Shown: positions 36,485-37,733 of the stretch, one piece after another
Layout: each line of letters opens with the position of its first letter
Numbering within the stretch: position 1 is the first letter of the stretch
Source: Burkholderiales bacterium
GTDB lineage: Bacteria > Pseudomonadota > Gammaproteobacteria > Burkholderiales > Methylophilaceae
Assembly (NCBI GenBank): GCA_030831475.1
Contig: JAURKY010000008.1
Coordinates: forward strand, 1-64,000
Reading direction: 5' to 3'
DNA: 64,000 bases
The notes under the pieces: model-generated
Seen by the model: the letters and a program-made list of their open reading frames with translations, nothing else
Databases searched by the model: none
Told to the model about the DNA's origin: nothing
Made by a program: the position numbers and the translations under genes

Positions 36485-36760
36485 ATGAAGAAACTTTTAC
36501 TTACTGCCTTAGTTGGTGGTTTACTTATTGGATGCGTTGCACCTGAACCTGAACCAGAAAAAGAATTTCATCCAACAGATGCTTTATTAATTGGTGGTAA
36601 CGGTGGTTTTAATCCATCTGATGGCGGCGCCGATCTTGGTGACCTTGATGCTGCGGCTCCTGCTGATGCAGCTCCATTCCATCCAACTGATGCTTTATTA
36701 ATTGGTGGTAACGGAGGCTTTAACCCATCTGACGGTGGCGCTGATTTAGGCGACTATTAA
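36485..36760 (+). CDS. small repeat lipoprotein
   Basis: lipobox LLIGC; two copies of FHPTDALLIGGNGGFNPSDGGADLGD; good RBS (agggagga). Confidence 0.75.
   Translation: MKKLLLTALVGGLLIGCVAPEPEPEKEFHPTDALLIGGNGGFNPSDGGADLGDLDAAAPADAAPFHPTDALLIGGNGGFNPSDGGADLGDY
36566..36754 (+). repeat. internal 78-nt coding duplication (36566-36643 and 36677-36754)
   Basis: both copies translate to the identical 26-aa unit with synonymous differences, joined by LDAAAPADAAP. Confidence 0.95.
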
Positions 36761-36813: not shown

Positions 36814-37008
36814 TTATCAAAATCTGATCATTTTGATAATGATTTTCACTAGTCTATCTTCATGTTCATCTTCATGGCCTTGCACGGCTCTTACAATTAA
36901 TATTGTATTGTAAATCTCAAGTTGAACCTTTGTGATTCTAGGATTACATCTTCAACGATCTGGTTTATGTTTAATGACTTTTATTTAACATAAACAAGGA
37001 GAAATACT

Positions 37009-37080
37009 ATGTGGACACAACCTACTGCAACTGAAATGCGTTTTGGTTTTGAAGTAACAATGTACGTTTGCAATAAATAA
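37009..37080 (+). CDS. pqqA: PqqA-like PQQ precursor peptide, copy 1
   Basis: MWTQPTATEMRFGFEVTMYVCNK with conserved E15-x3-Y19; RBS aaggag; too short for the ORF track. Confidence 0.93.
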   Translation: MWTQPTATEMRFGFEVTMYVCNK

Positions 37081-37087
37081 TTTCTTA

Positions 37088-37183
37088 ATGAAATATAATT
37101 ATTGTAAAAATACAGAAATTACTGATTGGCTTTTTCACAGCTGGCAATGTACTTGCCCGATGTGTTCAGCCAAGTCTAATTAA
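37088..37183 (+). CDS. candidate 31-aa Cys-rich peptide between pqqA copies
   Basis: ATG ORF MKYNYCKNTEITDWLFHSWQCTCPMCSAKSN; weak RBS; overlaps a strong hairpin, so coding status is uncertain. Confidence 0.35.
   Translation: MKYNYCKNTEITDWLFHSWQCTCPMCSAKSN
37126..37173 (+). other. long imperfect RNA hairpin between pqqA copies
   Basis: TTGGCT-tttt-CACA-gct-GGCAA-tgtac-TTGCC-cga-TGTG-ttc-AGCCAA, three paired segments. Confidence 0.65.
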
Positions 37184-37208
37184 TAAACCTTTTTTTAGGA
37201 GAAACATT

Positions 37209-37280
37209 ATGTGGACTAAACCAGCTGCTACAGAAATGCGTTTTGGTTTCGAAGTAACCATGTACGTAATGAACAAGTAA
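37209..37280 (+). CDS. pqqA: PqqA-like PQQ precursor peptide, copy 2
   Basis: MWTKPAATEMRFGFEVTMYVMNK with conserved E15-x3-Y19; RBS aggaga. Confidence 0.94.
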   Translation: MWTKPAATEMRFGFEVTMYVMNK

Positions 37281-37298
37281 TTTTATTTGTTCTACTTA

Positions 37299-37327
37299 AA
37301 AGCCCGACTTGCTCGGGCTTTTTTTTG
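37299..37327 (+). terminator. rho-independent terminator after pqqA copy 2
   Basis: AGCCCGA-cttgc-TCGGGCT followed by TTTTTTT. Confidence 0.93.
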
Positions 37328-37340
37328 TTTATAATATTTT

Positions 37341-37733
37341 GTGCGTTTGATATTTTTATTCATATTTTTGCCTTTTTATCTTTTTGCAGAGGATAGCTGG
37401 ACCCTTATTCATAAAGACGATCAAAACAAATCCTCTTTTCATATAAAGCTCGGTGATTTTAAGAGGATTGATAATAAGGTAAGGCTTTGGGTTATGGAAA
37501 GTTATGACGAGCCACAGCCCCCAGAAAAATATGCTTACCATTCTCTTAAAAGCTTGGTACAGGCTGATTGCTCAAGCACTAAAATCCGTTTTATGGCTTA
37601 CTCAATCTACAAAAGCAATAACGCTTCGGGCACAGCTATCTATTCAAAAGGGCAATCATCTGAGTGGTTTGAAGCAAATCCCAACACAGTGAATCGAGCC
37701 TATTTAGATATTGCTTGTAAAGAATCTAATTAA
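37341..37733 (+). CDS. exported hypothetical protein (surface-adhesin-E-like)
   Basis: signal peptide; WTLIHKDD...RLWVMESYDEPQ...ADCSSTKIRF pattern; GTG start. Confidence 0.55.
   Translation: MRLIFLFIFLPFYLFAEDSWTLIHKDDQNKSSFHIKLGDFKRIDNKVRLWVMESYDEPQPPEKYAYHSLKSLVQADCSSTKIRFMAYSIYKSNNASGTAIYSKGQSSEWFEANPNTVNRAYLDIACKESN

Follow-up and report, generated by a model that had tools for sequence, protein, structure and literature searches.

We found that two tandem pqqA genes in a 64,000-nucleotide stretch of contig JAURKY010000008.1 (contig C7 here; the whole stretch is referred to as the window), from a Burkholderiales bacterium of the family Methylophilaceae, are preceded by a structured leader, which covariation in related sequences shows to be a conserved three-way-junction RNA. 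The locus is likely to be a dedicated expression unit, in which this leader would act as a pqqA-specific cis-regulatory RNA that gates translation, most likely in response to a small-molecule signal, in host bacteria as well as in phages. The genome that contains the window amounts to 707 kb and is 59% complete. The features of the locus, all on the + strand of the window, are as follows.

36839 to 36876, +: promoter box (ATGATTTTCACTAGTCTATCTTCAT followed by TTCAT repeats), a probable activator site, conserved in the genus
36898 to 36903, +: probable -10 element TAATAT, with invariant T, A, and T columns (TANNNT) in the genus alignment
36906 to 37008, +: structured leader RNA with a three-way junction, from alignment, RNAalifold, and covariation; no Rfam match
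36910-36912 with 37005-37007 and 36915-36918 with 36999-37002, +: leader stem P1, joining the 5' end to the ribosome-binding site
36921-36926 with 36951-36956, +: leader stem P2a
36931-36937 with 36942-36948, +: leader stem P2b, which forms one stem with P2a, interrupted by an internal loop
36963-36971 with 36987-36995, +: leader stem P3, abutting the ribosome-binding site
36996 to 37001, +: ribosome-binding site AAGGAG of pqqA copy 1, inside the leader structure
37009 to 37080, +: pqqA copy 1, MWTQPTATEMRFGFEVTMYVCNK, TIGR02107 40.2 bits
37088 to 37183, +: small ORF, a Cys/Trp-rich microprotein gene, MKYNYCKNTEITDWLFHSWQCTCPMCSAKSN, conserved at the codon level
37197 to 37201, +: ribosome-binding site AGGAG of pqqA copy 2, read in the sequence and conserved in the genus
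37209 to 37280, +: pqqA copy 2, MWTKPAATEMRFGFEVTMYVMNK, TIGR02107 40.4 bits
37298 to 37322, +: terminator-like hairpin with a T run, conserved in the genus

The pqqA genes are real. An earlier note on this DNA had described them as two pqqA-like ORFs of 23 codons, each with the Glu15/Tyr19 pair and a ribosome-binding site, about 130 nucleotides apart and sharing a downstream terminator, and this description holds throughout: both ORFs lie where it placed them with the sequences it gave, and both match the NCBIfam PqqA profile TIGR02107 with about 40 bits each (cutoff, 20 bits) as well as Pfam PF08042. The two cross-linking residues, four positions apart, are present in both copies, AGGAG precedes each of them, the measured separation is 128 nucleotides, and the hairpin at 37298-37322 can serve as the common terminator. 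The tandem order is kept across the genus, with a start-to-start distance of ∼180 to 203 nucleotides; given that the same order and spacing recur, the tandem ORFs are not a product of chance. The suggestion that a Cys-containing tail (VCNK) marks different processing did not survive comparison, since pqqB-linked pqqA genes in other genera can end in VCNR/VCNK or in VMNK, and copy 1 itself ends in VMNK in two genomes of the genus. We thus discarded the Cys tail as a special processing signal, as tails vary without pattern between genera and copies.

None of pqqB, pqqC, pqqD, and pqqE is present among the window ORFs examined, as had been claimed, and a profile search of the genome placed the PqqE match (504 bits) outside the window, at C7:144311-145360. 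Intact pqqB-, pqqC-, and pqqD-like ORFs directly precede pqqE, with pqqB-C-D-E extending over C7:142318-145453, that is, on the same contig and 105 kb from the tandem pqqA genes. The earlier note had called the tandem pair an orphan locus and had proposed a search for pqqBCDE elsewhere in the genome. That search retrieved the genes, so the term "orphan" applies to the window only and not to the genome, which has a complete pqqBCDE on the same contig and a third, solitary pqqA elsewhere (C1:50190-50258); with pqqBCDE 105 kb away, an orphan precursor locus is ruled out. Genes for PQQ alcohol dehydrogenases are located on contigs C1 and C6. We did not find the pqqABCDE operon layout, as no pqqA lies beside pqqB either here or in the loci of the closest named relatives; most of the more distant Methylophilaceae loci have one pqqA ∼2.3 kb before pqqE. 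Three pqqA copies, a tandem pair and a single gene, are the rule in the genus, to which OM43-type isolates belong, and all 143 family genomes searched contain between 1 and 12 copies.

Dispersed multicopy pqqA has already been published for Methylophilaceae, including OM43-like members. The portion of PMC4109929 available to us describes several dispersed pqqA copies (3 to 12) and a single pqqBCDE for this family, thereby bearing out the earlier note's statement that methylotrophs can have multiple copies. Our genome resembles those described in that portion in having several pqqA genes, one pqqBCDE, and a chromosome-wide dispersal, but that portion makes no mention of a structured leader, a small ORF, or a promoter box, and, unlike in the family pattern given there, no pqqA was seen beside pqqB in the loci of the genus.

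The earlier reading of the locus was right about the pqqA genes and overlooked the leader RNA, the small ORF, and the shared promoter box. In the genus alignment of the tandem locus, the ∼100 nucleotides before pqqA copy 1 are conserved far better than their surroundings. Within the leader, the bases of the joining loops (CUCAA, YCU, UC, and GANNUG) are far better conserved than the stems, which change in a compensatory manner: P2a switches from GUUGAA/UUCAAU to GUUGGA/UCCAAU among hosts, and P2b is wholly rewritten in some host genomes. Over 22 distinct host leaders, 98.3% of cells are paired, and the covariation score is 0.187, compared to 0.090 after shuffling (reached in none of 500 shuffles) and at most 0.064 in controls with slid partners. 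When phage leaders were included, the score of the whole structure rose to 0.294 versus 0.130 for shuffled alignments (0 of 500), while the outer P1 pairs are broken in about one-third of this combined set. Folded alone in silico at 37°C, 21 of the 22 host leaders have a paired SD, the exception being L032, which prefers a fold with the SD free; the mean unpaired probability of the ribosome-binding site is 0.13 and rises to 0.32 upon shuffling of the upstream part. Since the SD-side pairs (CUC/GAG) are invariant, covariation speaks neither for nor against them, and the evidence for SD burial comes from folding energies only. None of the Rfam 15 covariance models came near its gathering score for the window leader or for those of four relatives. 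One candidate class, the TPP riboswitch, was dismissed: GAUCUGG resembles a thi box, yet TPP was absent from both Rfam scans.

We then asked where the leader occurs in bacteria. A 19-base leader core was found exactly once, with zero mismatches and always before tandem pqqA, in all 18 genomes of a genus set made up of this genome and 17 others at least 85% complete; elsewhere in the family it could be matched only by allowing two mismatches, at a frequency close to that of the reversed control. A covariance model (R1) detected the leader once per genome in 23 of 31 genus genomes, again always before tandem pqqA. The eight without it are incomplete (47 to 84%), and the tandem pair was not found in them, so that every genus genome in which the pair is assembled (23) has the leader. 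Covariance models did not detect it in the remaining genomes of the 187 searched for the family or among the other members of an order-wide sample of 300 genomes, and a scan of 369 genomes of the class with the leader pattern described below yielded no host beyond this genome. R1 and a second model, R2, include the first bases of pqqA. This bias is removed in a third model, R3, and in the pattern scan, both of which omit pqqA sequence; R3 returned the same 23 genomes, no other place, and only pqqA leaders. Within what was searched, the leader is linked exclusively to pqqA.

The same element occurs in viral sequences. A scan of viral contigs for the exact leader string gave no match, since the phage stems differ. 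We used a pattern built from the common loops, CTCAAGNNNNAYYT-(5-30)-TCTNNNNYGANNTG-(12-38)-AGGAG, which demands neither pqqA sequence nor complementarity; a slightly looser form of it matches the window once, versus 0.00 matches expected. In 2.9 million viral contigs the pattern occurs in at least 120 stretches, against about six expected by chance on a rough estimate. Among the viral matches listed, each of the 76 with full six-position P2a pairing has a PqqA ORF that begins (MWT..) only a few bases downstream of AGGAG, with a small number of these ORFs shortened by a contig end or an apparent frameshift; none of the five without P2a pairing has such an ORF. Of these matches, 72 elements are unique, and they form 24 different P2a helices. 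When unique elements of hosts and viruses are pooled (95), pairing in P2a reaches 99.5%, versus 80% (maximum, 83%) after shuffling, the former value being somewhat favored by prefiltering of this set for at least five of six P2a pairs; the unfiltered count of 76 and 5 is the cleaner one. Compensatory changes in the viral elements affect P1 (GUA/UAC to GUG/CAC) and also P2a. A P3 of at least 6 bp is present in 57 of the 72 unique viral elements among the matches listed and absent from 15. In L303, L365, L418, L455, L476, and L478, P3 seems to be replaced by a stem on the pqqA start codon (ACAUAAU/AUUAUGU), an apparent second expression platform.

A degenerate PqqA pattern likewise occurs in at least 120 stretches of IMG/VR, and in a number of these contigs R1 detected the leader ahead of pqqA. 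Several of the leader contigs examined encode T4-like DNA polymerase, clamp loader, UvsX, baseplate, or virion proteins. On two contigs with a pqqA leader, other known RNAs were noted: a ROSE-type RNA thermometer above the Rfam gathering score (L286, 1445-1510) and, on a methylophage contig, a tmRNA (beta-type/permuted model) near the leader (L471, 3764-4143).

When annotated phages were searched for distant matches to the locus, ten records were retrieved, nine of them OM43-type. A pqqA gene of 23 to 24 amino acids is present in P19250A, Venkman, MEP301, MEP401, MEP402, the Melnitz isolates, and an environmental podovirus, and it is not annotated as pqqA in any record examined; the loci L238 to L244 come from the named phages and ctXG6705. 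In P19250A, MEP301, and Melnitz, a stretch resembling the host promoter box (TAATGATTTTAC) lies upstream of pqqA. The isolated OM43 phages examined with R3 have pqqA and lack the leader; the R2 matches in MEP401 and MEP402 (33 to 34 bits) were caused by the pqqA start and disappeared with R3. PQQ is not mentioned in the phage papers that were text-searched, apart from PMC9004378, which names it only as a medium vitamin. A viral PqqA was published earlier for VP_266, a methylotroph virus from Lake Baikal (PMC7678222). The parts of that paper available to us share with our data the phage-borne pqqA as an auxiliary metabolic gene; they concern one viral population and describe no leader RNA, whereas we found unannotated pqqA in ten phage records and at least 120 viral stretches, many of them with the leader.

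Turning to the sequences around the leader, the promoter box also lies 80 to 100 nucleotides before the third pqqA, and its core, TTACTTAG, stands at a fixed distance before 19 of the 56 pqqA genes from other genera, compared to 0.3 in shuffles. This recurrence suggests that the dispersed pqqA copies probably share a regulator. In one relative, the box was also seen before a cytochrome c-like gene (L194, 1501-1525; G019:C2), and the regulon may thus include electron transfer partners of methanol dehydrogenase. The conserved TANNNT stands at the right distance to suggest that transcription begins around 36910, where the 5' strand of P1 lies. The small ORF between the pqqA copies encodes 31 amino acids here and between 24 and 32 overall, with the core IT-x-W-x-F-H-x-W-x-C-x-C-P-x-C-S-A-K and invariant W, H, W, C, C, P, and C, and is degenerate in three genomes. 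In other genera, its relatives are found between two pqqA genes or next to one (L220, L222, L223, L224, and L225), although one genus has several genomes in which the ∼0.9 kb around such a relative showed no pqqA. It has no Pfam or PDB relative, and one guess at its role is a metal- or thiol-sensing leader peptide for pqqA copy 2.

PQQ is the cofactor of the methanol dehydrogenases of OM43 marine methylotrophs, and PqqA is consumed, one peptide per PQQ. A consumable peptide is a natural control point, and its dose has to be set independently of PqqBCDE, which would explain the extra dispersed copies with their own control. In the mechanism that we propose, the locus would be a dedicated PQQ precursor unit of box and promoter, ∼100-nucleotide leader, pqqA, Cys-rich small ORF, second pqqA, and terminator. 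The folded leader would keep translation low by pairing the ribosome-binding site, and a signal, most likely a small molecule, would refold it and let translation rise. T4-like methylotroph phages have the same leader before their own pqqA. With PqqA as the consumable part, pqqA would be the only gene that a phage has to bring in to raise methanol oxidation. The joining loops are conserved, the covarying stems change fast, the ribosome-binding site is predicted to be buried, and the link to a cofactor precursor gene is exclusive; together, these features suggest that the leader is probably a riboswitch, and what was found is a structured candidate aptamer supported by covariation, in a 5' leader that always precedes a gene of the same pathway (pqqA). 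The single gene context names the controlled gene and cannot identify the ligand, for which PQQ is our first guess. More tentatively, and with less than even probability, the leader could be a riboswitch of a class outside Rfam whose ligand is PQQ, an intermediate, or a partner (for instance, a lanthanide) and which exerts feedback on the precursor supply in OM43 bacteria and T4-like phages.

Other kinds of RNA control have to be weighed against this proposal. The SD paired in silico and the AU-rich fold would also suit an RNA thermometer, in which warming, and no ligand, would melt the leader and free the hidden ribosome-binding site, and one leader-bearing phage contig does have a ROSE thermometer elsewhere. 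However, melting alone does not need joining loops far better conserved than the stems, and no Rfam thermometer family matches the leader, which makes a thermometer improbable. Conserved single-stranded loops suit any partner, and PQQ enzymes could feed back on their own substrate, so we assign a small but real chance to a host protein or sRNA that, bound to the junction loops, controls translation or decay of pqqA; against it stands the retention of the element across many phage contigs with strongly altered stems, all of which must then track one host protein, and no candidate partner was identified. A structure whose only task is to shield an abundant short mRNA from decay, without sensing, would fit with P1 lying probably at the very 5' end and with the need for more of this small peptide than of its enzymes, but it requires neither conserved joining loops nor pairing of the ribosome-binding site, and we regard it as unlikely.

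Explanations that dispense with the RNA fare worse. The promoter box just upstream might suggest that the conserved region is a DNA element only, a promoter or operator; P2a and P2b, however, change in a compensatory manner well beyond both the shuffled and the slid controls, which leaves this with a negligible probability. Ordinary pqqA redundancy, and nothing more, is in keeping with the multicopy pqqA published for the family, as far as the available portion of PMC4109929 goes, and with its universal presence in the family genomes searched. It leaves the leader, the small ORF, and the phage copies unexplained, and the covariation contradicts it as a complete account; we hold it to be very unlikely.

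The cis-regulatory RNA that we favor has likenesses among known systems. Translational riboswitches that hide the ribosome-binding site share with it the three-way junction, conserved joining loops, variable covarying stems, an SD in the paired state, and a cofactor pathway gene downstream, while the leader described here is a candidate with a putative expression platform and a single gene context. In another methylotroph, Methylophaga strain GP59, a structured leader also precedes pqqA, where it is annotated as a c-di-GMP riboswitch (PMC12530212); that leader belongs to a known Rfam class, whereas ours matches no Rfam family. The OM43 phage Melnitz has a glutamine riboswitch at ssrA (PMC9004378), which is likewise a structured regulatory RNA from a phage that infects streamlined marine methylotrophs but belongs to a different, known class; for OM43 hosts, the same paper reports only a cobalamin riboswitch. 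Our literature searches for pqqA together with an RNA motif and phage found nothing, and those for a riboswitch with pqqA or PQQ found nothing beyond the cases cited. As an unclassified RNA tied only to pqqA in hosts and phages, the leader makes control of PqqA supply testable with a 100-nucleotide transcript, and it bears on why OM43 methylotrophs keep several pqqA genes apart from pqqBCDE. Phages and hosts would, moreover, have one RNA regulator of an auxiliary metabolic gene in common, and that gene has so far been largely unannotated in OM43 phages.

Two neighbors of the unit were noted as well. A gene for a surface-adhesin protein E-like product (PF16747; window 37341-37733) lies directly downstream, with a similar frame in relatives. 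Upstream, a small lipoprotein-like ORF of 91 amino acids (window 36485-36760), which has no Pfam match, contains two copies of HPTDALLIGGNGGFNPSDGGADLGD, and a similar sequence is also found directly upstream of pqqA in relatives.
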